The notes beneath the pieces were generated by a model that had not been told where the DNA came from, did not search any database, and saw nothing but the letters and a program-made list of their open reading frames with translations. Both the position numbers and the translations under genes were made by a program. From assembly GCA_023247915.1 (NCBI GenBank), contig JAHFFN010000010.1, positions 1 to 42,053 of the forward strand: a stretch of DNA of 42,053 nucleotides, given 5' to 3'. Shown in pieces: positions 5,601 to 31,014 of the stretch (position 1 is the first letter of the stretch; the number at the start of each line of letters is the position of its first letter). The stretch comes from Candidatus Omnitrophota bacterium. GTDB lineage: Bacteria > Omnitrophota > Gorgyraeia > 2-02-FULL-51-18.

Positions 5601-6507
5601 AGGATTGGATTTGCAGATCAAGACCGACCCGAATGTGCCGGCAGGAATGTATGTGGACGTGAACCGTCTCCAGCAGATCTTAAAGAATCTTCTGTCCAAC
5701 GCGCTCAAGTTCACGGAAAAAGGAAAAGTGGTGATGCGCGTACGCGTTGTGGAAAGTAAAGAGACGAAGCATCTATCTTCCATTTTGCACAAAGCGGAGC
5801 GTGTGCTCGCGTTTTCAGTGACGGACACCGGCATTGGAATCCCGTCTGAAAAACAAAATCTCATTTTTGAGGCTTTTCAACAGGCGGATGGAACGACCAG
5901 TAGAAAATATGGCGGTACCGGTCTTGGTTTAACGATCAGTCGTGAAATTTCCAGGCTTTTGGGCGGGCATATCGAGGTCGAGAGCATCCCTGGAGCGGGC
6001 AGTACTTTCACTCTTTATATGCCGCAAAATTATACCGGCGCCGAAACGCCTCAGCGTGAAAAAGAGGTGACCGTGCCTCAACAGCCTCCTGTGCTTCCCG
6101 CGGATGCCGATTTCAAAGGCAAGAAAATCCTGCTGGTGGACGATGATAAGCGCAATATTTACGCGCTCACAAGCGCTTTGGAACTTCGCGACATGAAAGT
6201 CATCAGCGCTGAAAATGGCAAGGTTGCGATTGAGATGTTGAGTAAAAATCAGGATGTGGATCTGGTACTGATGGACACCATGATGCCCGAAATGGACGGC
6301 GTCGAGGCCACCAAGGCAATAAGAAAGATCCCGCATTTTTCAAAACTGCCGATTTTGTCTTTAACCGCGAAAGCCATGCAAGGCGACCGCGAAAAGAGTT
6401 TAGATGCCGGCGCTTCCGATTACATCACCAAGCCTGTGGATCCGGATATTCTTCTGGCGTACATGCATATCTGGCTGACAAAAGCATCCAAGCAGGGATC
6501 AAAGTAA
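2659..6507 (+). CDS. Soluble multi-HAMP hybrid histidine kinase (HAMPn-GAF-HisKA-HATPase-REC)
   Basis: 1282 residues, no signal peptide and no membrane segment. Residues ~60-640 are a chain of HAMP-type units with a 92-residue period (cores [21 protein letters not shown]; linkers [28 protein letters not shown]). A GAF domain follows (~680-830), then a coiled coil (~835-885) and HisKA with phospho-acceptor His894 ([10 protein letters not shown]). The ATPase has N (NLLSNALKF), G1 (DTGIGI) and G2 (GGTGLGL) boxes. The C-terminal REC has Asp1206 ([11 protein letters not shown]). This matches the group III (Nik1/Os-1-like) architecture known from fungi, where HAMP chains sense osmotic stress, and bacterial homologues. 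A strong ribosome site AAGGAG precedes ATG 2659. It leads a kinase/REC operon under promoter D. The signal is unknown; osmotic or desiccation stress is inferred. Confidence 0.92.
3229..4608 (+). repeat. Five 276-bp tandem repeats inside the multi-HAMP kinase gene
   Basis: Units begin at ATG codons 3229, 3505, 3781, 4057 and 4333, exactly 276 bp (92 codons) apart. The first four are nearly identical in DNA as well as protein over long stretches, including silent positions. The fifth is clearly diverged. This points to recent duplication or gene conversion and makes copy number prone to change by recombination or to collapse in short-read assembly. Confidence 0.9.
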
Positions 6508-6516
6508 GGAAGGGTG

Positions 6517-7716
6517 ATGGAAGAAGAAAAGACGAAAGAGCGTGTTGACATTCTTCTTGTGGATGATCGTGAGGACGGTCTTTTGGCCCTAGAGGCCGTC
6601 TTGGACTCTCCGGAATACAATCTTGTCAAAGTCAGTTCTGGAAAAGAAGCGCTGACAACGCTGATTCGTCATGATTTTGCCGTGATTTTACTCGACGTGC
6701 AAATGCCGGTCATGGACGGCTTTGAAACCGCGCATTTGATCCGGCGTTATTCCCCCTACCGCGAAGTTCCCATTATTTTTATTACAGCCATTAATAAAGA
6801 CGCGCATCACATCGCCCGGGGTTACGAGTCGGGCGCAATTGATTATCTTTTTAAGCCGATCGATCCGGACATTTTGCAATTTAAAGTGAAGATTTTTGTC
6901 GAGCTTTTTCAAGCGCGCCGCTCTTTAAAAAAAATGAACGAAGAGTTGGAAGAACGTGTCCGTGAGCGCACGGCCAAACTTGTTCAAATCAACAAAGAAC
7001 TTGAGCAATTTGCCTATGTCGCTTCCCATGATTTACAGGAACCCCTTAGAAAAATTATTATTTTTGGCGAACATCTTATGGAGGATTTGGGTGAGAATTT
7101 AAATGAGACGGACAAAGATTATCTTTCTCGAATGTGCAAGGCCAGTATCCGCATGAAAACGGTGATCGAAGAACTGCTTGTTTTTTCAAAAATCAGCTCG
7201 AAGGAAATGACATTTGAAAAAATAGATCTCAAAGAAGTTCTGCTTGAAATATTGTCGGATCTGGAAATTAAAATCAAACAGGAAAACGCCAAAATAGAAA
7301 TCAGAGACTTGCCAGCGATAACGGCTAATAAATCTCAGATCCGGCACCTGTTTCAAAATCTCATCTTGAACGCCATCAAGTTTTCCAAAAAAGAAGAGAA
7401 GCCCTCTATTGTTATTTCTAGCGAATCGAATGGTGATTTTGTGGATATCTCTGTGCGGGACAACGGCATTGGTTTCGAGGAAAAGTATGTCGACCGTATT
7501 TTCAAACTATTTCAACGTCTCCACGGCAAGCATGAGTATGAAGGCAGTGGTATCGGCTTGTCTATTTGCCAAAAGATCGTTGATCAGCATGGAGGCAGGA
7601 TCACCGCTCATAGCAAGCCTGACGAAGGGTCGGTATTTATTGTGACACTGCCTCTTTATCAAAAACTCGGTCTGGATGTCGGCGCCGAGGAATTATCGTC
7701 CACCTCAAACTCGTAA
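6517..7716 (+). CDS. REC-HisKA-HATPase histidine kinase
   Basis: About 399 residues. An N-terminal REC domain (acidic pair in LLVDDRED, acceptor Asp60 in LLDVQMPVMDG, Lys in LFKPIDPD) is followed by a coiled coil (SLKKMNEELEERVRERTAKL). HisKA has His171 (ASHDLQEPLRK, a phytochrome-like/HWE-free type), and the ATPase has N (NLILNAIKF), G1 (DNGIGF) and G2 (EGSGIGLSI) boxes. It is soluble. It probably takes phosphate signals through its REC from the upstream hybrid kinase and acts as the second relay step. I chose ATG 6517 over GTG 6514 because AAGGA (6506-6510) is spaced 6 nt from the ATG. It starts 9 nt after the preceding stop. Confidence 0.9.
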   Translation: MEEEKTKERVDILLVDDREDGLLALEAVLDSPEYNLVKVSSGKEALTTLIRHDFAVILLDVQMPVMDGFETAHLIRRYSPYREVPIIFITAINKDAHHIARGYESGAIDYLFKPIDPDILQFKVKIFVELFQARRSLKKMNEELEERVRERTAKLVQINKELEQFAYVASHDLQEPLRKIIIFGEHLMEDLGENLNETDKDYLSRMCKASIRMKTVIEELLVFSKISSKEMTFEKIDLKEVLLEILSDLEIKIKQENAKIEIRDLPAITANKSQIRHLFQNLILNAIKFSKKEEKPSIVISSESNGDFVDISVRDNGIGFEEKYVDRIFKLFQRLHGKHEYEGSGIGLSICQKIVDQHGGRITAHSKPDEGSVFIVTLPLYQKLGLDVGAEELSSTSNS

Positions 7717-7734
7717 GGATTCATCGACTATTTT

Positions 7735-8121
7735 ATGCCTAAAATTCTTTTGGTGGATGATGACGCCGTTCTTCGGAAGGTTTATGTGCGTTTTTTACGC
7801 CAGGAAGGGTTTGAAGTGCTCGAGTCCTGGAATGGCGAGCACGCGTTGTTAAATTTTATCGAAGAACCAATCGACGTGATTTTACTCGATATTCAAATGC
7901 CTGTTGTTTCGGGGAATGTGCTGATCTCGGCGTTACAACATTTTCATCCAACCGCGAAAATCATTATTTTCAGTTGCTACTCGATCTCTGTTCAAAAAAG
8001 AATGATAGATGGCGCCAAAAATTATTTTGACAAATCAGAAGGATGCGTTCGACTGATCTCAAAAATTAAAGCTCTTTTAGAGTCACATCCGGACACGTGC
8101 AACGCGGAACATATTCCGTGA
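7735..8121 (+). CDS. Single-domain response regulator (REC only)
   Basis: 128 residues forming one CheY-like receiver: LLVDDDAVLR acidic pocket, acceptor Asp52 (LLDIQMPVVSG), a Ser/Cys in IIFSCYS near the usual Thr/Ser, and Lys in FDKSEG. No output domain. It probably shuttles phosphate or binds a partner in the same relay. It closely resembles the REC at 10017 in its ending (NYFDKSEG versus SYHDKAEG), suggesting paralogues. It follows the REC-kinase by 18 nt, and its stop overlaps the GTG of the next gene (GTGA at 8118-8121). Confidence 0.85.
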   Translation: MPKILLVDDDAVLRKVYVRFLRQEGFEVLESWNGEHALLNFIEEPIDVILLDIQMPVVSGNVLISALQHFHPTAKIIIFSCYSISVQKRMIDGAKNYFDKSEGCVRLISKIKALLESHPDTCNAEHIP

Positions 8122-8735
8122 ACAATAACCACCCGCCCGCTAAAAAAAGCAAGGATTGCTCCGAGGCGATTTTGGAAATGATTCACGAACCTTTTCTTAT
8201 TTTGGATGCCGATTTTAGGATTCGAGCCGCCAGCCGGTATTTTTACGAAACGTTTAAAATTCGTCCCCAGGACGTTCTTGGTGTTCTTATTTTTGATTTG
8301 CAAGGAGGGCTGTGGAATTATCCAAAACTTCACGAGCTTTTGGATGGAGAGCTCTCAGACTGTCCTCTGGAGTCGGATTTTCCTGGGGTAGGCCACAAAG
8401 AGCTTCTTTTTAGTGCGCATTCTCAGATGGATGATGACGGAAGTAAATCAATTTTACTGGCCATTCAAGACATTACCCAGATGCGCCGAGCGGAGAAAGA
8501 ACTGCGTCAGTTTATCTATACCGTCTCCCATGATTTACGTCAGCCGGTGAGCAAGATGATCACTATCAGTGAATTTCTTGTGGAAAAAATCAAATCCATC
8601 GGGGAAGAGGAGAAAGATTATTTGCTAAGAATGTATGAAGCAGGGAAACGAATGAAAGAGTTTATCGATAATCTGACGCGTGACAGCGCTTCCAACGTGG
8701 AGTCGATCGAATGGCCATCCAAAATAAAAAAATAA
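8118..8735 (+). CDS. PAS-HisKA protein lacking a kinase ATPase domain
   Basis: About 205 residues. A PAS-like domain (~12-115, ILEMIHEPFLILDADFRIRAASRYFYETF…ILLAIQDIT) is followed by a HisKA dimerisation helix pair with His138 (TVSHDLRQPVSK). The protein then ends (NLTRDSASNVESIEW) with no N, G1 or G2 boxes, and none are encoded downstream. It cannot bind ATP by itself. It may act as a phosphotransfer His protein, a heterodimer partner for the 6517 kinase (whose HisKA is similar), or be a decayed kinase. The GTG at 8118 is preferred because it overlaps the upstream stop (GTGA). An in-frame GTG at 8097 would add 7 residues. Its 3' end overlaps the next gene by 25 nt. Confidence 0.75.
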   Translation: MNNNHPPAKKSKDCSEAILEMIHEPFLILDADFRIRAASRYFYETFKIRPQDVLGVLIFDLQGGLWNYPKLHELLDGELSDCPLESDFPGVGHKELLFSAHSQMDDDGSKSILLAIQDITQMRRAEKELRQFIYTVSHDLRQPVSKMITISEFLVEKIKSIGEEEKDYLLRMYEAGKRMKEFIDNLTRDSASNVESIEWPSKIKK

Positions 8736-9142
8736 TTTTATTTATCGACGATGATGAGGATGATTTTCTGATTTTGAGGGGCATCTTTAAAGAATTTTCC
8801 TCGGATATTGAATTGCAATGGGTTAGAGACGGCGAGGAAGCGATCAATTATTTGACGCAACAAGGTAATTTTAAAGACGCGGAGAAGCCGCTTTTAATCC
8901 TGCTTGATTTAAATATGCCAAAGTTAAACGGAGAGGAAGTGCTGAGACAAATCCGGAATCACGAATCGCTGCGATATATTCCTGTCGTGGTGCTTTCTAA
9001 TTCCATGAATAAAAAAGACGTGATGACCGCGTATGAATTGGGAGGTAATTCCTTCATCAGAAAACCCGCCGGCTATAAAGAGCTCCGCGAAATGGCGCAG
9101 ACGCTTTCGAAATATTGGTTTGAGCACTCCACGTTAATTTAA
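8711..9142 (+). CDS. Rcp1-type response regulator (REC only)
   Basis: 143 residues, a receiver of the Rcp1 class that partners phytochrome-like kinases: FIDDDEDDF, inserted loop NYLTQQGNFKDAEKP, acceptor Asp66 (LLDLNMPKLNGEEVL), IRNHESLRYIPVVVLSNS, and Lys in FIRKPAGYKEL. No DNA-binding domain. The start ATG 8711 lies inside the end of the PAS-HisKA gene, so translation is coupled. Rcp1 regulators usually pair with kinases having the ASHDLQEPL type HisKA, exactly the motif seen at 6517 and 8118. This supports a common relay. Confidence 0.88.
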   Translation: MAIQNKKIILFIDDDEDDFLILRGIFKEFSSDIELQWVRDGEEAINYLTQQGNFKDAEKPLLILLDLNMPKLNGEEVLRQIRNHESLRYIPVVVLSNSMNKKDVMTAYELGGNSFIRKPAGYKELREMAQTLSKYWFEHSTLI

Positions 9143-10424: not shown

Positions 10425-11093
10425 ATGCGAATTTTACTTGTAGAAGATGAGAAAAAAATAGCCAGTTTTATTGAGCGCGGGCTCAAAGAACAGCATTATG
10501 TGGTGGATGTGGCTCATGATGGCGGCGCCGGCAGTGTTCTAGCGAGCGTCAACGATTATGATTTGATTATTTTGGACGTGATGCTTCCCGAGAAAGACGG
10601 TTTTTCGTTGTGCCTGGAAATCCGCAAGAAAAAAAGCGACGTGCCGATCCTAATTTTGACCGCCAAAGACAAAGTGTCTGATAAGGTGCGTGGTCTTGGC
10701 GGTGGGGCTGATGATTATTTGACCAAGCCGTTTGAATTTGAAGAGCTTTTGGCGCGTGTGGCGGCTTTGCTTCGCCGGAAAAATTCTCAAAAGAGCTCCG
10801 ATTTAAAAGTGGCGGATCTCGAATTGGATCAACTGAAGCACCGGGTCAAGCGCGCTGGAAAAGACATTCCTCTGACAAGCAAGGAATACGCGCTCCTGGA
10901 GTATCTGATGATTCATTCGGATCAGGTGGTGACCCGCACCATGATTTCGGAGCATGTGTGGAATGAGGATTTTGACAGTTTTTCTAATGTCGTGGATGTT
11001 TATATCAATCATTTGCGTGGCAAAATTGACAAAGGATTCAAAAAGCAGCTGATCCATTCGATTCGAGGCACCGGCTACACCTTAAAAGAATAG
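10425..11093 (+). CDS. OmpR/PhoB-family response regulator with winged-helix output
   Basis: 222 residues. REC domain (~1-118) with LLVEDEKK, acceptor Asp51 ([10 protein letters not shown]), LTAKD and [12 protein letters not shown]. The C-terminal winged helix (~128-222) has the family landmarks [38 protein letters not shown] and IRGTGYTL. The overall style is that of CusR/CopR-like regulators. Members bind direct repeats with ~11-bp spacing, which makes this protein the in-window candidate for the TTAA-box promoters; this is inference only. It has its own sigma70-type promoter and lies 3 nt before its partner kinase gene. Confidence 0.93.
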
Positions 11094-11096
11094 CGA

Positions 11097-11849
11097 GTGG
11101 TCATGACCATGATCGTGTTGATTGCTATCCTTTTAGTAATCGCGCTTGTTTTGATGGCGGGCTCCCTCCATCAAATGAAGCTCCGTCTTCAGAAATCCTC
11201 CCAGGATATTGCCGAGTTTAGTTCCCACATGTCGCACGAATTAAAAACCCCTTTGGCGATTTTGCGAGGAGAATCGGAGTTGGCTCTGCGTTTGGAGCAG
11301 ACTCCGGAAGAATACCGAAAAGTTCTTGAGGGCAACCTACAAGAAATTTCTCGTATGGCTAAAATCATCGAAGATCTTCTTCTATTAACCCGGCTGGATC
11401 ATCAGCCGCAGATTTTAAAATTTGAAAAATTTGATCTAGTAGATTTTTTAAAGGAAATAGAAGAGGCTGCCCGTTTATTGGCAGGCGAGAAAAAAATCAC
11501 GGTGGAATCGGATTTTCCTAAAGAGACCTGCTTATTTCTTGGGGACAAAGCGCATCTGAGAAGATTATTTTTTGATTTGGTTAAGAACGCCATCAAGTTT
11601 ACACCGGCTTACGGAAAAATTCGGATGCATATGCGCCGTGACGGCGGGAATATTTTGATTTCAGTGTCGGACACGGGCGCGGGCGCGGAGGCTGTTGCTG
11701 GCAATGGACTGAGCTTCAAAATCGCTCAATCCATTACGAAGTCGCACTCTGGAAGCATCTCAGCGGAGAATCGCTTGGGGAAGGGAACTACTTTTACAGT
11801 CAAACTTCCCACCGCTTCGTGTTGTGGGCTCAAGGTTAAAAAAACATAA
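11097..11849 (+). CDS. Minimal membrane-anchored histidine kinase with shortened ATPase domain
   Basis: 250 residues. One N-terminal membrane helix (~4-23), no periplasmic sensor and no HAMP. HisKA with His47 (SHMSHELKTPLAIL), then a compact HATPase: N box LVKNAIKFTPAYG, G1 DTGAGAEA (normally DTGxGI), then directly GNGLSFKIAQSI where GxGLGLAI is expected. The F box and lid are shortened, so the lid is reduced though the ATP-binding Asp and Gly remain. It pairs with the OmpR regulator 3 nt upstream. Signal input is probably through a membrane partner, and DoxX immediately downstream is a candidate. Start is GTG 11097 or ATG 11103; neither has a clear ribosome site. Confidence 0.85.
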   Translation: MVMTMIVLIAILLVIALVLMAGSLHQMKLRLQKSSQDIAEFSSHMSHELKTPLAILRGESELALRLEQTPEEYRKVLEGNLQEISRMAKIIEDLLLLTRLDHQPQILKFEKFDLVDFLKEIEEAARLLAGEKKITVESDFPKETCLFLGDKAHLRRLFFDLVKNAIKFTPAYGKIRMHMRRDGGNILISVSDTGAGAEAVAGNGLSFKIAQSITKSHSGSISAENRLGKGTTFTVKLPTASCCGLKVKKT

Positions 11850-11864
11850 AAAGGAGGTCCTTGT

Positions 11865-12248
11865 ATGAAACAGCTTGCCAAATACAGCGGGGAAGCTTAT
11901 GCCCTCTTACGCATTATGACCGGACTCATGTTTTCATTTCATGGCGCTCAAAAAATCCTCGGGATTTTGAGTGATTTCCAGCCGGCGATAGGATCTCAAA
12001 TGTGGTTTGGCGGAATCATCGAGCTTGTCGGCGGTCTTTTGGTGATGGTCGGTCTGCAAACACGTTGGGCGGCTTTTCTGGCCAGCGGCACGATGGCGGT
12101 GGCGTATTTTCAATTTCATTGGAAACTCCAACTTGGCTCTCATTTCTTTCCCGCGATTAACGAGGGAGAATTGGCCGTCATTTATTGCTTTGTCTTTCTC
12201 TCTATCGCCTGCCATGGCGGCGGCAAGTGGAGTCTGGACAAGTCTTAA
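11865..12248 (+). CDS. DoxX-family membrane protein
   Basis: 127 residues with four hydrophobic segments. Family landmarks are RIMTGLMFSFHGAQKILG near the N-terminus, GGIIELVGGLLVMVGLQTRWAAFLASGTMAVAYF in the middle, and NEGELAVIYCFVFLSIACHGGGKWSLD at the end, all typical of DoxX/DoxD-like inner-membrane proteins. Roles proposed for the family include quinone-linked redox and thiol-stress handling, and a DoxX subunit accompanies some bufferin operons. A very strong ribosome site (AAGGAGG) precedes ATG 11865. It follows the kinase by 15 nt and is probably the third gene of that operon. Confidence 0.85.
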   Translation: MKQLAKYSGEAYALLRIMTGLMFSFHGAQKILGILSDFQPAIGSQMWFGGIIELVGGLLVMVGLQTRWAAFLASGTMAVAYFQFHWKLQLGSHFFPAINEGELAVIYCFVFLSIACHGGGKWSLDKS

Positions 12249-20392: not shown

Positions 20393-20656
20393 TTGAAAAA
20401 ACGCACGCGAAGTCGGTGGTTTGTTTATATTTTAGAATGTAAGAACGGTTCGTTGTATACAGGCATCACCACGGATGTAAAAAGACGCTTTCAAGAGCAT
20501 CTTCAAAAATCCGCGCGTTACACCAGTTACAACCCGCCGGTTCGGCTGGCGTATCAGGAAAACGCCAAGAACCGTTCCGCCGCGTTAAAACGTGAAATCC
20601 GGATCAAGCGTCTGACAAGAGCCGCCAAACTAAAATTGATTTCTTCAAAACCATGA
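20393..20656 (+). CDS. GIY-YIG nuclease-like protein (UPF0213/YhbQ type)
   Basis: 87 residues with WFVYILECKNGSLYTGITTDVKRRFQEH (the GIY-YIG core, here VYI and YTG), the conserved Arg in KRRFQEH, and SAALKREIRIKRLTRAAKLKLI at the end. This is the short single-domain UPF0213 family, with unknown targets and possible DNA-repair roles. The start is TTG 20393 (no ATG in frame), 5 nt after the mgtE stop. Its end overlaps the start of the oxidase gene by ATGA. The weak start suggests low expression. Confidence 0.85.
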   Translation: MKKRTRSRWFVYILECKNGSLYTGITTDVKRRFQEHLQKSARYTSYNPPVRLAYQENAKNRSAALKREIRIKRLTRAAKLKLISSKP

Positions 20657-21306
20657 CAAAAACGCATTTGGAATTAAAATCTGAACAGGAAAAAACGCTA
20701 AGTTCTCCCCGGAGGCGCTACGGACTTTTGGCGAAGCTTCTGTTTCTTTTTATGGATGTGTTTTACGGACAAAAAAGAACTCTCTCCAAATTTAAAGTTT
20801 TGGAAGTGATTGCCCGCGTTCCTTATCAAGCTTGGGAGCATGTGGCTTATATCGCGATGACGCACACGTATGGCAAACCTCACTTTGCCCGCCGGGTTTT
20901 TGATTTTGTGAAAGAATCAAGGAGTCAGCAGGATAACGAGCAGTGGCATTTACTGATCTTGGAAGAAATAGTCCAGGAAAAACAAGCCAAAGAGAATTTT
21001 TTCCTCTACCGTTTTTTACCGCAGGTGGTCGCGTTTGCGTATTATCATGTGAGTTGGCTGCTTTATGTGATGAAGCCGGCATGGAGTTACGCGCTCAATG
21101 CTGATTTTGAGGATCACGCGGAGCACGAATACATGGAATTTGTCCGGGACAATCCTTCTTTTGAAAAGGAAAGATTTGAAAGTGATTTCAAAAAAGATTA
21201 CGGGGAATTTGATACCCTGGCGGATCTTTTCAGAAATATCGGTCTTGACGAAAGAATACATAAAGAAGAAAGTTTAAACCGGATACAACACGCGAGATTT
21301 TCTTAA
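20653..21306 (+). CDS. Alternative oxidase / PTOX-family di-iron quinol oxidase
   Basis: 217 residues with all six di-iron ligands in place: Glu51 (VLEVIARVPYQ, the LETxARVPYF-type motif of plastid terminal oxidase), Glu96 and His99 (NEQWHLLILEE), Glu153 (ADFEDHAEHEY), and Glu200 and His203 (DERIHKEES). The middle hydrophobic stretch FLPQVVAFAYYHVSWLLYVM is the membrane-facing helix. These enzymes oxidise quinol and reduce O2 to water without pumping protons, relieving over-reduction. The protein is shorter than plant AOX and resembles PTOX more. Its ATG overlaps the GIY-YIG stop, and Sco and MsrA genes follow, so an oxygen/redox-stress operon is inferred. Confidence 0.85.
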   Translation: MTKTHLELKSEQEKTLSSPRRRYGLLAKLLFLFMDVFYGQKRTLSKFKVLEVIARVPYQAWEHVAYIAMTHTYGKPHFARRVFDFVKESRSQQDNEQWHLLILEEIVQEKQAKENFFLYRFLPQVVAFAYYHVSWLLYVMKPAWSYALNADFEDHAEHEYMEFVRDNPSFEKERFESDFKKDYGEFDTLADLFRNIGLDERIHKEESLNRIQHARFS

Positions 21307-21316
21307 GAGCCTAGCC

Positions 21317-21910
21317 ATGTCAAAAAAATCACCGATTTCCACGAATCTTTTAATGCTGCTGATCGCCGGACTCTTTGGCGGACTACTTATTCTTATCAGC
21401 TACAAATTGTATGACATGGGTTATTTGGGGCGGGGGACGGCACTGCCCGTGGAGGGTCAAGCGCCGACATTCAGCCTGACGGAGCGAAGCGGCAAAACGC
21501 TGAACTCTTCTGATTTGAAGGGCAAGGTTTGGGTGGCGGATTTTATTTTTACGCGTTGCGCCGGCCAGTGCCCCATGATGAGTTTAAAGATGAAAGAGCT
21601 TTCCAAAGCCTTTCCCGGAGCTGTTTTTGTGTCGTTTACCAGTGATCCAGAATATGACACGGCGGAAGTGTTATCGACCTACGCTTCTTGGTATGAAGCG
21701 GATACGAACCGGTGGTTTTTTGTGACGGGGAAAAAAGAAGCGTTGAATCAGGTGGCGGTCGGCCTCAAACTCAGCCAAATGGATTCTCCCGACATGCATA
21801 GCAATTATTTTGTTTTGATGGATGTCAAAAGCAGAGTGCGGGGTTATTATGACGCCAATGACGCTGAGGCCATGGAAAAACTAAAGACAAGTCTCCGGAA
21901 GCTTTTATAA
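21317..21910 (+). CDS. Sco1/SenC-family copper/thiol-disulfide protein
   Basis: 197 residues, anchored by one N-terminal helix (~10-29) with a thioredoxin-fold domain outside the cytoplasm. The Sco copper motif Cys81-x3-Cys85 ([10 protein letters not shown]) and the distal ligand His161 ([12 protein letters not shown]) are present. Sco proteins deliver copper or electrons to the CuA site of cytochrome oxidase. No oxidase subunit genes are in this window, so a more general thiol/copper role next to the alternative oxidase and MsrA is possible. It follows the oxidase by 10 nt and ends overlapping msrA (TAATG at 21908). Confidence 0.88.
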
Positions 21911-22521
21911 TGAAGGTTCGACGGATTTTCATTTTTTTAATAGCGGCCACTTTGTTTACAATGCCCGCATGGAGCGAAATCATGAATCAAAAATTGGAAA
22001 AAGCGGCGTTCGGCGCTGGTTGTTTTTGGGGAGTAGAAAAAGTTTTCGGAGAACTCGACGGCGTGGTCTCAACGGCCGTGGGTTACACGGGCGGTACGGT
22101 GCCCAATCCCAGTTATGAGCAGGTTTGTAGCGGGCGCACGGGTCACGCGGAGGCGATTGAAGTGGTGTATGACCCCTCCAAAATAAGCTATGAAGATTTG
22201 CTTGAGTTTTTTTGGACGCATCATGACCCGACCACGCTCAATCGACAGGGGAATGATGTCGGGACTCAATACCGTTCCGTTATTTTTTACTACACACCCG
22301 AGCAAAAAACCGCTGCTGAAAAGTCAAAGGCGCTTTTAGACAAGTCCGGCGTGTTGAAATTTCCCATCAAAACAGAGATTGCCGCCGCCAAAGAATTTTA
22401 CCGCGCGGAAGAATACCACCAGAAGTATTTACAAAAAAATCCGGGCGGTTATTGTCACATTCAGCTTCAATCCGCCAAGATCAGCCATATTTTGCGTGCG
22501 GAACGAGGGCTTAAGAGTTAA
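21910..22521 (+). CDS. msrA: Exported peptide-methionine (S)-S-oxide reductase
   Basis: 203 residues: a signal peptide at ~1-22 ([18 protein letters not shown]), then an MsrA domain with catalytic Cys38 ([12 protein letters not shown]), [28 protein letters not shown], the [22 protein letters not shown] core, and [18 protein letters not shown] with a resolving Cys. It reduces Met sulfoxide in proteins. The signal peptide places it in the periplasm, where it would need an extracytoplasmic thiol donor, and the Sco-like neighbour could serve. Its ATG overlaps the Sco gene stop. It is the last gene of this operon, before the iron-type promoter at 22530. Confidence 0.93.
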
Positions 22522-22667: not shown

Positions 22668-24770
22668 ATGGTATTGCGTTTAGTTGCAAATAAAAAACAG
22701 TTAAGCCTGGTTTATGCTTTAATTTTGACCGCTTCTTCGGTGCCAGCCTATGCCGCCGATAATTCCGTAACCACACTCAAAGAAGTGGTGGTGACAGCTT
22801 CTACTAAAAACGCCTCCACGGCGACCAAGACCAGCACGCCGATCCGGGATATTCCCGCGTCGATTGCCGTGATTCCCCAATCCGTGATCCGAGAACAGGG
22901 TTCTTCCGCGAATATGGACTCGTCGATTAAAAATGTCAGCGGTGTCACACAAAGCAGCAGCTCCAATTATGGTTTTTTTAATAATTATCTGATTCGCGGG
23001 CTCAATATGAATTTTTTGAGAGACGGCGCTCCCGACGGTTCGACGGTGAACGGCTATGCGCGCTCGCTGGTGGATGTGGAACAGGTGGAAGTGTTGAAAG
23101 GACCCGGCTCGGCGTTGTACGGCAGTGGTTCTCCGGGTGGCTCTGTCAATCTGGTCAGCAAAGTTCCTCAAAGTTCTCCACGTTATGAGTTTAGCCAAAG
23201 CGCCGGAAGTTTCGACACCTATCAAACCACAGCCGATTTGACGGGTCCTATTGGCGGCGACAATTTGCTTTATCGTTTTAACGGAAATTATTTTACGACC
23301 GATGGATTTAGGGGTCTCAATAAGGAAATGACCGAAGTGTTGCCTACGATTCTTTGGAAAGTTGACCAAGATCATGATCTGACGATCGATTTTGATTACC
23401 GCGATATCGAGCTTGTCAGCGATACCAACGGCATTCCGTTTCGTGGCACCAGCCTTACGCAGTCCAACGCGCTTTTGAATGTTTCCCGCGACAAGAAATA
23501 CTACACGCCGTTTTCAAACACGGATCAACAGGTACTGCGCTTCGCTTTGACGGACGAATACAGAGCTAGCGACCATCTTCTTTTAAGAAATAATTTTGTT
23601 GTTTTGGATCGCGATCTTTATCTGCTAAGGAATGGCGGCGGGACTATTACCGCGAATAGTTCCACGATGACGGGAAGAAGTCTTCGGGAGCAGACGGATC
23701 AGGTGACGGATTATCTGTATCAAATCGAACCCGTTTTTGATTTTGAAACAGGAAGTTTCGCACACAAGCTCTTGACCGGTTTTGAGCTTCAGTATCACGA
23801 CATGAGCGCGGTGCGATCGATAGCCGCTTTGCCAAATATCACCAATGTATTTGATCCCGTGATTCCTGAAACCAGTAAAAGCGCGCTCAACTTCGTGCCT
23901 AATTTTGACCGGGACATCCAAGCGCTTTATCTGTCTTTGTACGCGCAGGATCAAGTGGAGTTGACCGAGCAGTTGAAGATTCGTTTGGGTGGCCGTGTGG
24001 ATCGTTTTGACACGGATGTGCAGAGCCATCTCAATAACGTCGAAGAAGACAGACAGGACGATGCCTTGAGTGGTCAGGCCGGATTGGTTTATCAACCGAT
24101 CCACGAAACTTCTTTTTATATCGGGGTTTCGAGCAGTAAACAGGCGATTCTCACGACGGAGTCCACCGCGCCTTTAAATCAACCGGAAAGCGCGGTTCAA
24201 TATGAAATCGGCAACAAGACTAGTTTTTTTGAAGACAAATGGAATGTTAATTTGGCGCTCTTTGATGTAACGCGTCAGGATTTTCTGGTGACGATCGGAA
24301 CCGAATCAGTTCCTGTCGGTGAACAAAAAACCCAAGGCATCGATGTCGATATCGACGGAGAGTTGGCTCAAGGCTGGAAGTTCTACGCCAATTATTCTTA
24401 TCAGGACGCGGAGCTTGTGAATGTGCCCGGTGTCGCGCCGGCTGTGAATGGAAATCGACCGACGGGTATCCCGGCGCATTCCGCTGGTTTTTGGACGACG
24501 TATGAATTGCAAAACGGACCGCTCAAAGGTTTTGGTTTTGGCGGCGGCCTGACTTATAAAGGGAATATTTTTATCAATCAAAACAATACATCCAGCGTGC
24601 CTCGTTACACGGTGGGGGATCTCGTATTTTTTTATCGCACCGATCGTTGGGAGGCGCAGTTGAATGTCACGAATGTAACGGACGTCACTTATTATAGAAA
24701 CGGCGTTAATTCGGGGGCGCTTCCCGGGGATCCTTTTTCAATGTTGGCAACCCTAAGGTTTAAATTTTAA
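22668..24770 (+). CDS. TonB-dependent siderophore-type outer-membrane receptor
   Basis: 700 residues. A signal peptide to ~29 (…VPAYA) is followed by the TonB box region KEVVVTA and the plug domain (DIPASIAVIPQSVIREQG, YLIRGLN, VEQVEVLKGPGSALYGSGSPGGSVNLVSK). A 22-strand type barrel ends in the aromatic RFKF. The plug motifs match the siderophore-receptor subgroup (FhuA/FpvA-like), so the ligand is likely a ferric chelate, though another metal chelate is possible given the copper-type genes downstream. It is controlled by the Fur-like palindromes at 22547-22633. PepSY, ExbB, ExbD and TonB genes follow in one run, giving a self-contained uptake unit. Confidence 0.93.
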   Translation: MVLRLVANKKQLSLVYALILTASSVPAYAADNSVTTLKEVVVTASTKNASTATKTSTPIRDIPASIAVIPQSVIREQGSSANMDSSIKNVSGVTQSSSSNYGFFNNYLIRGLNMNFLRDGAPDGSTVNGYARSLVDVEQVEVLKGPGSALYGSGSPGGSVNLVSKVPQSSPRYEFSQSAGSFDTYQTTADLTGPIGGDNLLYRFNGNYFTTDGFRGLNKEMTEVLPTILWKVDQDHDLTIDFDYRDIELVSDTNGIPFRGTSLTQSNALLNVSRDKKYYTPFSNTDQQVLRFALTDEYRASDHLLLRNNFVVLDRDLYLLRNGGGTITANSSTMTGRSLREQTDQVTDYLYQIEPVFDFETGSFAHKLLTGFELQYHDMSAVRSIAALPNITNVFDPVIPETSKSALNFVPNFDRDIQALYLSLYAQDQVELTEQLKIRLGGRVDRFDTDVQSHLNNVEEDRQDDALSGQAGLVYQPIHETSFYIGVSSSKQAILTTESTAPLNQPESAVQYEIGNKTSFFEDKWNVNLALFDVTRQDFLVTIGTESVPVGEQKTQGIDVDIDGELAQGWKFYANYSYQDAELVNVPGVAPAVNGNRPTGIPAHSAGFWTTYELQNGPLKGFGFGGGLTYKGNIFINQNNTSSVPRYTVGDLVFFYRTDRWEAQLNVTNVTDVTYYRNGVNSGALPGDPFSMLATLRFKF

Positions 24771-24774
24771 TCGA

Positions 24775-25269
24775 ATGAGAAAAATACACCGAATGATCGG
24801 GATTTGTTTCGCGCCTTTTTTGGCGGCGACCGCTGTGACGGGGCTTTTATGGGCTTACGCGCCTTATCTTTATTTAAAAACGCCTCCGCCCTCTAAAAAT
24901 GCGGCGATGATTGATGATAAAAGAAATTATATCCCGATTGTTGATGTGATTCGCGCGGTGTCTGTGGGAGAAGGGGAGCGCATTAAAAGCATCACTCTTC
25001 GACCCGAGCCCGAATCTGGAAGATTAGTCTATTTCGTGAACAAAGGCTCAAAAAAAGGACTCAAAGAAATTTGGGTGGATGCCGAGACCGGAGCGGTTTC
25101 GGAGCCCAAGGCAAGCGCCGGACGTGAATTCCACAACTGGGTCATGAAAATACACCGGCTTGAATTTTTTGGAACGAAAAAGGAGTTGGTGGCGATTCCC
25201 GGCACGGGACTACTTCTTTTATTATTGACGGGGCTTTTTTTGTGGAAGCGGCGCGGGCCAACCGCTTAA
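24775..25269 (+). CDS. PepSY-associated membrane protein
   Basis: 164 residues: N-terminal helix MRKIHRMIGICFAPFLAATAVTGLLWAYAPYLYL, a periplasmic PepSY-like stretch (~50-120, IPIVDVIRAVSVGEGERIKSITLRPEPESGRLVYFV…EIWVDAETGAV), and a C-terminal helix with HNWVMKIHRLEFF…GTGLLLLLLTGLFLW. The His residues before each helix (KIHR, twice) are typical of PepSY_TM iron-regulated proteins and may bind heme or take part in ferric-siderophore reduction. It starts 4 nt after the receptor gene, so it is co-regulated with it. Confidence 0.8.
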   Translation: MRKIHRMIGICFAPFLAATAVTGLLWAYAPYLYLKTPPPSKNAAMIDDKRNYIPIVDVIRAVSVGEGERIKSITLRPEPESGRLVYFVNKGSKKGLKEIWVDAETGAVSEPKASAGREFHNWVMKIHRLEFFGTKKELVAIPGTGLLLLLLTGLFLWKRRGPTA

Positions 25270-25295
25270 TTTTCATCAACGTTTAGGAGGAGGAT

Positions 25296-25925
25296 ATGTT
25301 GGAATTATTTCATAAGGGCGGGCCGATCATGTGGCCGCTGTTATTGGCTTCGATTATTTCTTTGGGAGTGGCGATTGAGCGCGTGATTTTTATTTTCAGG
25401 GAGCAGCGAGGCCGGGACGCGGCCGCTGTCGACGCTATTTTGCTGTACGCGGAAAAAGGCGAAATCGACGCGGCGATCAAGGCCGGAGAAAGTAGCCGCG
25501 ACTATTTGGCCAAGACATTGGTGTATGGGCTTAAACACGAAAAAAAATCCACATCGAACGCTCTTTTGTCAGCCGCCAACCGGGAACTCAAGCGCTTTAC
25601 CCAAGGCCTGCCGGTGCTGGACACGATCATTACCCTGGCGCCGCTGTTAGGTCTTTTGGGAACGGTCACCGGCATGATTCGTTCGTTTGGTCTTTTGGGC
25701 GGAGCCGAACTCGACACCCCCGCTGTGATTACCGGCGGCATCGCGGAGGCGTTGATCGCCACGGCCTTTGGTTTAGGCATCGCGATTGTGTCATTGATTC
25801 CTTTTAACTATCTGACCTCCAGAGCCGAAGAAGCGCGTCATGAGATCGAAGACGCTGCTAATCATTTGGAACTCCACCTGATCAAATCGAAAGCGGACTA
25901 TGAGAATCTCGCTACCAAGCGCTAA
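25296..25925 (+). CDS. exbB: ExbB/TolQ/MotA-family proton channel
   Basis: 209 residues with three membrane helices: ~12-30 (PIMWPLLLASIISLGVAIERVIF), ~110-130 (LDTIITLAPLLGLLGTVTGMIRSF) and ~145-168 (ITGGIAEALIATAFGLGIAIVSLIPFNYL). The GLLGTVTGMI and EALIATAFGLGIAI motifs are those of ExbB, which with ExbD harvests proton motive force to drive TonB. A strong ribosome site (AGGAGGAG) precedes ATG 25296. Its end overlaps exbD by 26 nt. Confidence 0.92.
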   Translation: MLELFHKGGPIMWPLLLASIISLGVAIERVIFIFREQRGRDAAAVDAILLYAEKGEIDAAIKAGESSRDYLAKTLVYGLKHEKKSTSNALLSAANRELKRFTQGLPVLDTIITLAPLLGLLGTVTGMIRSFGLLGGAELDTPAVITGGIAEALIATAFGLGIAIVSLIPFNYLTSRAEEARHEIEDAANHLELHLIKSKADYENLATKR

Positions 25926-26310
25926 GCGCAAAGCCAGAATCGAGATCATTCCACTCATCGATATTGTCTTTTTTCTTTTGGCGACATTCGTGATGGTTTC
26001 GATGTCGATGGTTAAAAATCAGGGGGTTTTGGTGAAACTTCCGGTGGCTTCGACTTCCGCCGCCGAAGACCGCCGCTCCGCCGTGACGCTCTCTATTACG
26101 GAAGGCGGGGATGTTTTTTTGAATAAAGAAAAAATTCTCATAGAAGATTTGCGCGAGAAGCTTCAAAGCTTAAAAGAAGGAAACCCAGAGATCAAAGTTT
26201 TTATCAACGGTGATGAACGTGCTTTATTGGGGCCAACGGTGAGAGTGTTGGATGAAGTCCGAATGGTTGGAATTAAAAAAGTGGCGATTCAGACAAAAGG
26301 CAAGAAATGA
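25900..26310 (+). CDS. exbD: ExbD/TolR-family energy-coupling protein
   Basis: 136 residues: a short cytoplasmic tail, then one membrane helix with the essential Asp21 (IIPLIDIVFFLLATFVMVSM), and a periplasmic domain ending LGPTVRVLDEVRMVGIKKVAIQT. The Asp is the proton-carrying residue of this family. The start ATG 25900 lies inside exbB, and its stop overlaps the tonB ATG (ATGA at 26307), indicating coupled translation of the whole ExbB-ExbD-TonB set. Confidence 0.92.
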   Translation: MRISLPSAKRKARIEIIPLIDIVFFLLATFVMVSMSMVKNQGVLVKLPVASTSAAEDRRSAVTLSITEGGDVFLNKEKILIEDLREKLQSLKEGNPEIKVFINGDERALLGPTVRVLDEVRMVGIKKVAIQTKGKK

Positions 26311-26999
26311 GCCCGCAAGTAGCGCTTTTCAAAAAAGACCGGTCGATTGGTTTTACCACCTCGATCGTGCTTCATGGGGCGCTACTGCTTATCGGCGGTT
26401 TTATTTTTGTGAAGCCCATTGATTATGGAGTGGAATCTGGTAGCGGAGGCGTGGAGATCAGCCTGACCGCGGCTCCCGCCGAGATTGTGACTGACGAGGA
26501 AGTGATGCTGGAGGAAGCTCCACCCGCGCCGGAAGCGATAGTCAAAGACCCAGAGGAGATGGCGCTTTCGGAAAATAAGCCGGAGGCGTTGAAAGCGGTA
26601 AAAGAGAAGGAAGAGAAAAAAGTAAACGCGGCTGTCAGTCCCGCCGAAAAAGGCGATGGAAGCTCCGCGATTCCTGGAAGAGATCAAACAACCTTTTATT
26701 CTTTGGGCGGAGCTCTCACCGAAGCCAAGCCCAACTATTTAAGAAATCCCGCCCCCGCTTATCCTCGGGTCGCTCGCGAAAAAGGGTGGCAAGGGGTGGT
26801 GCTTCTCAAGGTTTCCGTGGATAAATCCGGACACGCGGCGAGTGTCGAAAAAGAGAAAAGCTCAGGGTATGATATCCTCGATCAGTCGGCGTTAAAGACG
26901 GTTCGCGATTGGCGTTTTCGTCCGGCTCAAGTTGGCGCCTTGCCGGTGGAGTCAGTGGTACTTGTGCCGGTGCGTTTTACATTGGAATCTAAAAAGTAG
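26307..26999 (+). CDS. tonB: TonB energy transducer
   Basis: 230 residues: an N-terminal membrane helix (~17-37, TTSIVLHGALLLIGGFIFV with the conserved Ser/His), and an acidic, Pro/Glu/Lys-rich spacer (~55-120). The C-terminal TonB domain (~145-228) has PAPAYPRVAREKGWQGVVLLKVSVDKSG and LDQSALKTVRDWRFRPA. It spans the periplasm and pulls on the TonB box of the receptor at 22668. The spacer contains few X-Pro repeats compared with E. coli TonB. It overlaps exbD by 4 nt. Confidence 0.9.
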   Translation: MSPQVALFKKDRSIGFTTSIVLHGALLLIGGFIFVKPIDYGVESGSGGVEISLTAAPAEIVTDEEVMLEEAPPAPEAIVKDPEEMALSENKPEALKAVKEKEEKKVNAAVSPAEKGDGSSAIPGRDQTTFYSLGGALTEAKPNYLRNPAPAYPRVAREKGWQGVVLLKVSVDKSGHAASVEKEKSSGYDILDQSALKTVRDWRFRPAQVGALPVESVVLVPVRFTLESKK

Positions 27000-28427: not shown

Positions 28428-29015
28428 ATGTTTCGTAAATTTTTATTCACACTCATGGCGGCGTTGTTTATCGCCACAGTTCCAGCACAAGCGGCTACTT
28501 ACAAGGTAGATCCCGATCACACGACAGTTTCTTTTAAAATTCGTCACTTGTTTTCAAATGTCACTGGCCAGTTCACCAAGTTTGACGGTACTTTTGAATA
28601 CGATCCTGAAAAACCAGCCACTTGGAGTTCTTCCGGCGCTATCCAGGTTTCAAGCATCAATACCAATGTGGAACAACGCGATAAGCATTTAAAATCCCCG
28701 GATTTTTTTGATGTGGATAAATTTCCTACCATCGATTTTAAAACCACCAAGGTATTGGAATCCACCAAAGAGCACGCCAAGATAGAAGGTTTAATGAAGC
28801 TTCACGGCGTTGAAAAACCCGTGGTGTTGAATGTAGACATTCACGGAGAAGGAAAAGACCCTTGGGGCAATATCCGAGCCGGTTTTACCGCGACCACCCG
28901 AATCAATCGCAAAGATTTTGGTTTGGGTTGGAATGAAACCTTGGAAACAGGGAAGCTTTTGGTGGGCGAAGAAGTGGATATCACCATTGAACTGGAAGGC
29001 ATTAAACAAGTTTAA
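28428..29015 (+). CDS. YceI-family periplasmic lipid-binding protein
   Basis: 195 residues: a signal peptide to ~22 (PAQA), then one YceI lipocalin-like barrel: YKVDPDHTTVSFKIRHLFSNVTGQFTKFDGTF, ISSINTNVEQRDKHLKSPDFFDVDKFPTIDFKT, GLMKLHGVEKPVVLNVD and NRKDFGLGW. The family binds isoprenoid chains such as polyprenyl quinone and is often induced by stress. The NVEQRDKHLKSPDFFDVDKFPTI block is the family signature. It has a good ribosome site (TGGAGG). It is followed at 30 nt by the bufferin-type gene, which suggests common control. Confidence 0.92.
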   Translation: MFRKFLFTLMAALFIATVPAQAATYKVDPDHTTVSFKIRHLFSNVTGQFTKFDGTFEYDPEKPATWSSSGAIQVSSINTNVEQRDKHLKSPDFFDVDKFPTIDFKTTKVLESTKEHAKIEGLMKLHGVEKPVVLNVDIHGEGKDPWGNIRAGFTATTRINRKDFGLGWNETLETGKLLVGEEVDITIELEGIKQV

Positions 29016-29044: not shown

Positions 29045-29314
29045 ATGGAAAATAAAATATCCAAAAAATCAAAATTAATCGCAGCGTCTATGGCCGGGCT
29101 TATGGCTGTCGGAACGATGGCGATTCTTTCAACCAGCGCCAAGGCCGAGAGCGAAACAGCGCCTTGCTACGGCGTGAACGCTTGTAAGGGAACTGGCGAT
29201 TGCGGCGGCAAAGGTTATTCTTGCGCAGGCAAAAATGCTTGCAAGGGCGCCGGATTCATCAAGCTTCCCAAAGATGCTTGCACCCGTATTCAGGGCGGAC
29301 GTTTAACCGCCTAA
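29045..29314 (+). CDS. Bufferin-type Cys-rich peptide precursor
   Basis: 89 residues: a signal peptide (~8-34, LIAASMAGLMAVGTMAILSTSAKA) and a small Gly/Lys-rich mature part with six Cys at 41, 47, 53, 60, 66 and 79, in the repeating pattern CYGVNACKGTGDC…GYSCAGKNACKGAG. This matches the bufferin precursors (BufA-type), ribosomally made peptides modified by a DUF692 enzyme with a DUF2063 partner, which bind copper in the periplasm of Caulobacter. Here the DUF692-DUF2063 protein is encoded immediately downstream. The ribosome site is AAGGAGAAG. The metal here is inferred by homology; iron or other metals cannot be excluded. Confidence 0.85.
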   Translation: MENKISKKSKLIAASMAGLMAVGTMAILSTSAKAESETAPCYGVNACKGTGDCGGKGYSCAGKNACKGAGFIKLPKDACTRIQGGRLTA

Positions 29315-29320
29315 ATCTCC

Positions 29321-29348
29321 GTAGGGGCGCACGGCCGTGCGCCCCTAC
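29321..29348. repeat. Perfect 28-bp palindrome between the bufferin and its maturase gene
   Basis: Fourteen-base arms (GTAGGGGCGCACGG and its exact complement) meet with no spacer, just 6 nt after the bufferin stop and 7 nt before the DUF692-DUF2063 ATG. It is very GC-rich in an AT-rich gap and lacks a following T-run, so it is not a standard terminator. Palindromes of the GTAGGGGCG…CGCCCCTAC kind recur as dispersed REP-like elements in many bacteria. As RNA it would form a very stable hairpin that could protect the bufferin message and reduce maturase translation. Confidence 0.85.
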
Positions 29349-29355
29349 ACTATTT

Positions 29356-31014
29356 ATGAATTCTCCCATGGGATGCGGCGTCGGACTACGGGCGCCGCAT
29401 TATTCTTATATTCTCTCTCACCGACCGCCGATGGATTTTTTTGAGGCGATTTCCGAAAATTACATGGATACGGGCGGCCGCCCGATCCAAATTTTGGAAA
29501 AAGTCCGGCAACAGTATCCGATCGCTTTGCACGGAGTTGCGCTTTCCATTGGCTCCGCGGATTTTTTGGACAAAAATTATCTTAAAAAATTAAAAACGCT
29601 TATCGGCCGCATTGATCCTTTTATTGTCTCGGATCATTTATGCTGGAGCGGCGTCGCCGGGCAAAGTTTGCATGATCTATTGCCTTTGCCTTTTACCGAA
29701 GAGGCGGTGGATTATATCGCGAGTCGGGTGTCCCAGGTGCAAGAACTGCTAGGGACGACGATTCTCCTAGAAAACACTTCGACTTATGTGACCTGCAAAC
29801 ACTCCGCGATGCCGGAATGGGAATTTGTCACCGCCGTCGCGCGTCGTTCGGGATCGGGCATTCTTTTGGATTTGAATAATATTTTTGTCAACGCCGCCAA
29901 TCATAAATTTAATCCTTATGATTATTTAAAAAATATTCCTAGCGAACTCGTCAAACAATTTCATCTGGCGGGGCACACCAACAAGGGAAAGTTTCTTTTC
30001 GATACGCATAGTTCACCGGTGATTGACGCCGTCTGGAAATTGTACGAAAAAGCGCTGGAACTTTACGGGCCGGTTTCAACGCTTGTGGAATGGGATGAGG
30101 CGATTCCGGAGTATCCGGTGTTGGCCGCGGAGGCTGAGAAGGCTAGAGCGATTTATAGCCGCCATTCTGAGTCTCGAGAAGATAAAGAATCCAAAGTTAA
30201 AATTTTTAATCGTCCCGCTCCTCAGCAGGACGCGTTTATTTTGCGCGAATTTCAAACCAAAATGAAATCCTGGATTTCGCCATGCTCCGAAGGCGCGGAT
30301 CCCAATCTTGGAGAACTTTTAAATCCTCAAGGAGGAGAGCCGGGCTTGGCGCGAATGACGGTTTACGCGGAGGGGTATCTGGCGCGCATCCACGAATCTC
30401 TTTCGGAAGTCTATGAAGCGGTGAAGCATTTCTTGGGGGATGACGCGTTTATTGAACTTTCGGAAAGATACGCGGCGGCGCACCCTTCCGAGGATTATAA
30501 TTTAAATCATGTGGGGCGGCGCTTGCCGGAATTCATTCGCGGGACTTCTTGGACGGAACAACTGGGGTTTTTACCGGACTTGGCGATGCTGGAATGGAAT
30601 ATCGCCCGGGCTTTTCATGCATTTGAGGAGCCTGCGCTTCAACCATCGGCGTTGGCGGGCTTGTCTGGGGATCAGGCGGAGGGACTCAAAATACGTTTTC
30701 AACCTTCCGTAAGCGTGGTGTCTTCGGAGTGGCCACTCTTGGATATTTGGAAAGCGCGAAAAACAGCGCTTCAGGAAATCAACATCGATTTAAAAAATCA
30801 CCCTCAATCCGTCCTTGTTTTCCGTCAGGATCTGGAGGTACGCTGTGAATCCCTCGAAAAAACACAGAGTGATTTTATTCAAACCCTTTTAAGGGGAATG
30901 ACGCTGGGCGAGGCCTGCGAGAGGCTGGTCAATGCCGGCCATGATTCGGAACCCTTAGGGGAGTGGTTTGCGGCTTGGTCGACCCGCGGAATGCTCGCCA
31001 AAATCTCTTCATAG
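29356..31014 (+). CDS. DUF692-DUF2063 fusion: bufferin maturation enzyme plus partner
   Basis: 552 residues. The N-terminal DUF692 TIM barrel (~4-275) keeps the iron-ligand motifs known from MbnB/BufB: HGVALSIGS, SDHLCWSG, ENTSTYV, LLDLNNIFVNAANH, FHLAGH, DTHSSPV and VEWDEAIPEY. The C-terminal DUF2063 (BufC-like, ~295-550) has QDAFILREFQTKMKSWI, MTVYAEGYLARIHESLSEVYEAVKHFLG, YAAAHPSEDYNLNHVGRRLPEFI and LAMLEWNIARAFHAFE. These two proteins are usually separate; here they are one chain. It should modify Cys of the bufferin at 29045. ATG 29356 is the likely start, with ATG 29368 (MGCGVGLR) the alternative; neither has a ribosome site, and the palindrome lies just before. Confidence 0.85.
   Translation: MNSPMGCGVGLRAPHYSYILSHRPPMDFFEAISENYMDTGGRPIQILEKVRQQYPIALHGVALSIGSADFLDKNYLKKLKTLIGRIDPFIVSDHLCWSGVAGQSLHDLLPLPFTEEAVDYIASRVSQVQELLGTTILLENTSTYVTCKHSAMPEWEFVTAVARRSGSGILLDLNNIFVNAANHKFNPYDYLKNIPSELVKQFHLAGHTNKGKFLFDTHSSPVIDAVWKLYEKALELYGPVSTLVEWDEAIPEYPVLAAEAEKARAIYSRHSESREDKESKVKIFNRPAPQQDAFILREFQTKMKSWISPCSEGADPNLGELLNPQGGEPGLARMTVYAEGYLARIHESLSEVYEAVKHFLGDDAFIELSERYAAAHPSEDYNLNHVGRRLPEFIRGTSWTEQLGFLPDLAMLEWNIARAFHAFEEPALQPSALAGLSGDQAEGLKIRFQPSVSVVSSEWPLLDIWKARKTALQEINIDLKNHPQSVLVFRQDLEVRCESLEKTQSDFIQTLLRGMTLGEACERLVNAGHDSEPLGEWFAAWSTRGMLAKISS

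Follow-up and report, generated by a model that had tools for sequence, protein, structure and literature searches.

The window, a stretch of 42,053 nucleotides from a draft genome of the phylum Omnitrophota, very probably encodes a copper-buffering bufferin (captophorin) system of the BufA2 type, in which the two maturation proteins BufB and BufC are naturally fused to a single chain. The bufferin system as such is known; apparently new are the joined maturase, its association with a yceI gene and the repeat-derived linkers of fused relatives. Domains, gene order, conservation and fold prediction form the basis of this analysis, and the chemistry, metal, export and function proposed for bufA2-bufBC follow those of characterised relatives. 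The coordinates of all features are given in Table 1.

Table 1. Features of the bufferin locus, with positions in the window.
Feature	Coordinates	Strand	Basis
yceI, YceI-family periplasmic protein, directly 5′ of bufA2	28428..29015	+	PF04264, 167.9 bits
bufA2, bufferin precursor, 89 aa	29045..29314	+	NF050166, 65.4 bits vs cut-off 60
bufA2 product: Sec-type signal, residues ~1-34; six-Cys core CYGVNACKGTGDCGGKGYSCAGKNACKG...C			
Perfect 28-bp palindrome GTAGGGGCGCACGGCCGTGCGCCCCTAC, strong RNA hairpin, between bufA2 and bufBC	29321..29348	.	fold z -3.65
bufBC, single-chain maturase, 552 aa	29356..31014	+	ORF, domain matches and model
BufB/MNIO domain, residues 7-266	29374..30153	+	NF050167, 361.7 bits vs cut-off 310
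Motif CATTCTGAG...AAGAATC in the window linker	30163-30191		motif occurs twice in genome
Inter-domain linker, residues ~271-290	30166..30225	+	low model confidence
BufC/PME-type-1 half: DUF2063 helical domain, ~291-421; RRE-like domain, ~445-551	30226..31011	+	PF09836, partial HvfC, model

The open reading frame of bufBC starts with an ATG at position 29356, runs through 552 codons without any internal stop and is separated from bufA2 by a gap of 41 bases; the gene order bufA-B-C is retained. Its N-terminal half matches PF05114 (MbnB_TglH_ChrH, the former DUF692) over residues 7-266 with 349.8 bits (cut-off 25), and its C-terminal half matches PF09836 (DUF2063) over residues 324-394 with 57 bits (cut-off 27.2). 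The preliminary description, made from the sequence alone, had proposed that BufB and BufC are united in one 552-residue chain; the uninterrupted reading frame and the two matches above cut-off bear this out, and the domain search that it had called for identified the C-terminal half as DUF2063. The model of MbnB from methanobactin biosynthesis (TIGR04159) scored only 54 bits against a cut-off of 325. An alignment to the structure 3BWW showed that the conserved His/Asp/Glu/Asn motif positions are retained and, together with conservation, points to H59, H94, E139, D172, N174, H203, H207, D216, H218 and E245 as putative iron ligands, in line with the earlier claim that all DUF692 ligand motifs are kept. 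When numbered via 3BWW, the sites of inactivating mutations in HvfB (N175, D242 and H244) would correspond to N174, D216 and H218 of bufBC. No other MNIO was found in the whole 1.65 Mb draft genome.

The HvfC model aligns with the BufC half only partially (residues 332-525) and with 27.3 bits, far under its cut-off of 142. A phmmer search of this half against the PDB gave no match, and a profile search had 3DEE as its top, weak match (E=0.13). In the AlphaFold2 model the helical DUF2063 part is followed by an order of strands and helices that is compatible with an RRE; given the E-value of the 3DEE match, this predicted domain is a likely RRE. The model as a whole (pLDDT 91.5, pTM 0.89, from an alignment of 38 sequences) predicts, with good confidence, a single folded unit for bufBC whose linker is flexible, confidence being clearly low around residues 271-290 alone (pLDDT 67 for 271-280 and 52 for 281-290). 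This overlaps with the junction at residues 275-295 that had been proposed before. Foldseek returned TglHI, the Histophilus somni DUF692 protein 3BWW and MbnBC as the best solved structures, with target-normalised TM-scores of 0.87 to 3BWW and 0.77 to TglH. The expectation that the fusion fixes a 1:1 ratio and helps to define the interface of enzyme and partner holds for its first part, since synthesis at 1:1 is certain; the interface, however, is not revealed by the fusion itself, and the high pTM is a prediction.

With the product of bufA2 scoring above the BufA2 cut-off, its designation as a bufferin-type peptide is upheld. All six relatives tested also passed this cut-off, the lowest of them with 60.1 bits against 60. 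The peptide has a K-rich start, a hydrophobic stretch and an AKA end, on which the Sec signal was assigned by eye, and contains cysteines at positions 41, 47, 53, 60, 66 and 79. In an alignment of 20 relatives five cysteines are invariant and the sixth is nearly so. DUF2282 (Buf1) was not matched by the 89-aa peptide in a Pfam search at E 0.1, and the six cysteines stand against four in Buf1. The preliminary description had set the six-Cys peptide apart from four-Cys members, but the four-Cys comparison is that with Buf1/DUF2282; as 90% of Buf2 precursors have six conserved cysteines (Antoine et al., PMC12452194), six are the rule within Buf2. The AlphaFold model of the peptide is of low confidence (pLDDT 63). 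A Shine-Dalgarno-like AGGAG lies upstream of the gene, and the copy adjoining bufBC is the only BufA2 found in the draft genome. Elsewhere, locus L047 (7374-8003) has two BufA2 genes in tandem, followed by one fused maturase, and a BufA-like protein of Lysobacterales (L036, 4808-5929) carries two six-Cys units per chain and resembles the 12-Cys Buf2 type.

A survey of 384 genomes of the host phylum, together with wider samples of three groups, revealed the fused chain in 18 genomes from four families of the host phylum, three of the genes being cut by contig ends. Among the genomes having the gene, it is fused in 8/8 of the own family (f1), in 7/8 of f53, in 2/2 of f57 and in one genome of f2, where it is broken over two contigs. 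Wherever the 5′ side of a fused gene in the host phylum was sequenced, a BufA2 gene lies upstream. The two-gene form occurs within the same phylum in f31 (nine genomes), f17 (two), f35 (one) and in a single genome of f53 (G101). At three split loci (L038, L044 and L052 of genomes G288, G157 and G332) bufB and bufC share a reading frame with just one stop codon between them, and are thus one substitution short of a fusion. Genome G046 carries, in addition to a fused bufBC, a diverged second MNIO gene (L053, 1945-2844).

As the draft genome consists of 81 contigs, an assembly or sequencing artefact that joined two genes had to be considered. The same architecture is, however, present in 17 other assemblies, whose chains share 46-57% identity with bufBC where complete. 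An assembly error, which the preliminary description had named as the case that would overturn its claim, is therefore rejected, and the chance that an artefact accounts for the fusion is negligible. Outside the host phylum no fusion was found, as all inspected loci of Verrucomicrobiaceae, Streptomyces, Myxococcales, Lysobacterales and another bacterium are split, and so are all inspected plasmid loci. Spans of tblastn matches had suggested a joined chain at loci L032-L036 (Verrucomicrobia, Streptomyces, Myxococcales and Lysobacterales), which ORF analysis resolved into two genes each; likewise, the single-piece tblastn matches on plasmids of Shinella and Rhizobium turned out to be separate or broken ORFs. 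A limited literature set contained no report of a natural BufB-BufC chain.

The linkers of the fused chains are variable, and in several fused relatives the linker peptide reads like the translation of a dispersed palindromic repeat of mobile-looking character. Examples are CHPEAKPKDL...GGRSAQND in G024 and RHCEESLRDD...SLAARND in G046. The linker region of G024 has 57 matches in its own genome, self included, and 23 in G046, the linker of G248 has nine in its own genome, again including itself, and that of G213 has local copies at 80-97% identity. The repeat types differ between genomes. Fold z-scores of the fused linkers have a median of -1.9 (lowest -9.4, -6.0, -5.2, -4.5, -4.3 and -3.5), against medians of -0.1 for windows taken within these genes and 0.1 for the bufB/bufC junctions of 22 unfused pairs. 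The linkers are lower than either set (p=6e-5 and p=6e-4, respectively), p-values that overstate the significance as related genomes are treated as independent. At least nine fused linkers, including that of the window (z -1.62), exhibit no significant hairpin. For the window linker, a recent repeat copy was considered and found unsupported, the best other match having E=0.2. Its CATTCTGAG...AAGAATC motif, whose second genomic occurrence reads CATTCTGAGCGTAGCGAAGAATC, may be a decayed repeat copy, which is a weak indication because the window linker itself had contributed to the choice of the motif.

Two explanations for the origin of the fusion can be weighed on these data, both of them being compatible with a bufferin maturase as the function. 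The chain may go back to one ancestral fusion by loss of a stop codon, followed by repeat insertion into a tolerant linker and by re-splitting or transfer in some lineages. In trees of the BufB half, the BufC half and their concatenation, whose inner branches are weak, the fused rows cluster strongly (3 changes versus 11 in shuffles), a single fused clade is neither demonstrated nor rejected (p-AU 0.37), and the three in-frame split loci with their single stop codons fit such a course as well. Yet the split G101 is nested within the fused family f53, and a history with one change is found in no bootstrap tree, which leaves this course at about an even chance. Alternatively, dispersed palindromic elements could have inserted at the bufB/bufC junction and provided a stop-free linker that bridged the genes, perhaps several times. 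The genomic copies of the linkers in G024, G248 and G213, the hairpin scores far under those of gene bodies and also under those of unfused junctions, and the genome-specific repeat types speak for this idea, whereas the linkers without significant hairpin, the poorly resolved trees, the lack of independence among the linkers and the failure to reject a single fusion speak against it. As one ancestral fusion is allowed, the repeats may have entered a pre-existing linker, and insertion as the joining event is a serious but somewhat less favoured candidate. More tentative still is the combined proposal that the linker between MNIO and partner was created or reshaped more than once by dispersed palindromic repeats, which would act as a gene-fusing device, in an operon of a distinct yceI-bufA2-bufBC type with YceI replacing DoxX.

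Among 31 related loci from the host phylum, fused and split ones alike, 25 have the order yceI-bufA2-bufB, and several exceptions lie at contig ends. No yceI was seen next to bufA2 in loci outside the host phylum, and an association of yceI with bufferins was not found in the bufferin literature searched. DoxX is regarded as a core bufferin gene (PMC12452194). As a conserved cluster member it had to be dropped here, as none was found beside the fused loci; the nearest in the window, at 11865 as had been described before (PF07681, 51.7 bits), is 18 kb away and lies beside a two-component system. The notion of a missing subunit does not hold, however, because the absence of DoxX is common to nearly all relatives in the host phylum, which have yceI there instead. 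In three relatives a MauE/DoxX-like gene is located about 2 kb upstream, just 5′ of yceI.

Exactly two copies of the palindrome GTAGGGGCGCACGGCCGTGCGCCCCTAC are present in the genome, the other, identical one being at G000:C78:41346-41373. Hairpins in the gap between bufA2 and bufBC also occur in many relatives, with T runs after some of them. It is a reasonable inference that the palindrome serves as a partial brake on transcription or translation, yielding more precursor than enzyme.

Several further gene groups were observed in the window. Just upstream, at 22668-26999, genes for a TonB-dependent siderophore-type receptor, a PepSY protein, ExbB, ExbD and TonB lie in a row; in relatives this row is not conserved beside the bufferin genes. 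Positions 20653-22521 encode an alternative-oxidase-like protein, an SCO1/SenC-type copper chaperone and a peptide methionine sulfoxide reductase, suggesting a copper and oxidative-stress neighbourhood. A response regulator near the CopR/SilR heavy-metal family (271.1 bits, cut-off 279.2), a histidine kinase and DoxX form a row at 10425-12248, and at 2659-9142 hybrid histidine kinases and response regulators follow one another, one of these proteins having six HAMP domains.

By homology to characterised systems (PMC12452194, PMC13097082, PMC13419390), the precursor would be synthesised with its Sec signal and held by the RRE-like part of the chain, probably via the signal or leader region. The MNIO barrel with its Fe(II)/Fe(III) pair would then use O2 to convert core cysteines to 5-thiooxazoles, and the modified peptide would leave by Sec and bind excess copper or a similar metal in the periplasm. 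Copper is the most likely metal by this analogy, and the neighbouring genes point to iron or oxidative stress as well. The fusion would hold enzyme and partner together at 1:1, a point of importance given that the related HvfBC needs the partner for its active Fe(II)/Fe(III) state (PMC13419390). That bufBC matures another substrate, or that its BufC part is a DNA-binding regulator as in the old DUF2063 annotation, is very improbable: the Pfam title of PF09836 still reads 'putative DNA-binding domain', but the sole MNIO and the sole BufA2 found in the genome adjoin each other, and those DUF2063 proteins that have been characterised act as partners of MNIO enzymes (PMC12452194).

Among known systems, the Buf2 (Buf_6/12Cys) clusters share with the window a six-Cys precursor with Sec signal, followed by an MNIO and a DUF2063 partner with an RRE, a likely one in the window, but there BufB and BufC are treated as separate proteins and DoxX is core, whereas the window has one chain and yceI beside the precursor gene (PMC12452194). 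An HvfB-HvfC fusion engineered in 2026 is highly active and outperforms the co-expressed pair (PMC13419390). Like in bufBC, the C-terminus of the MNIO is joined to the N-terminus of the partner; this construct is, however, man-made, without linker and from an oxazolin system, while bufBC is natural, has a linker of about 20 residues and belongs to a Buf2 system. With the laboratory fusion beating the separate proteins, nature thus appears to have built the same construct, and the natural chain may give the same coupling. MovX, cited in PMC13419390, also combines an MNIO and a substrate-binding element in one chain, with a C-terminal RRE-type (winged helix) domain alone instead of a DUF2063 plus RRE-like partner. 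TglHI and MbnBC (PDB 8HI7, 7TCR), the closest folds, are likewise complexes of MNIO and partner, but consist of two chains and perform other chemistry. Palindromic elements of Rickettsia (PMC10969869) resemble the linkers of fused relatives in being translated in frame inside proteins; these are insertions within single genes, whereas in several bufBC relatives the repeat is the linker between fused partners.

The study of MNIO enzymes is hampered by partners that can bind weakly, and HvfB and HvfC were fused artificially in order to obtain the mixed-valent iron state that is active (PMC13419390). Natural single-chain maturases from four families of one phylum represent evolution-tested 1:1 constructs for structure determination and spectroscopy, and their variable linkers bound the possible joining points of the two halves. 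The repeat-derived linkers, in turn, document how neighbours in an operon can turn into one protein.
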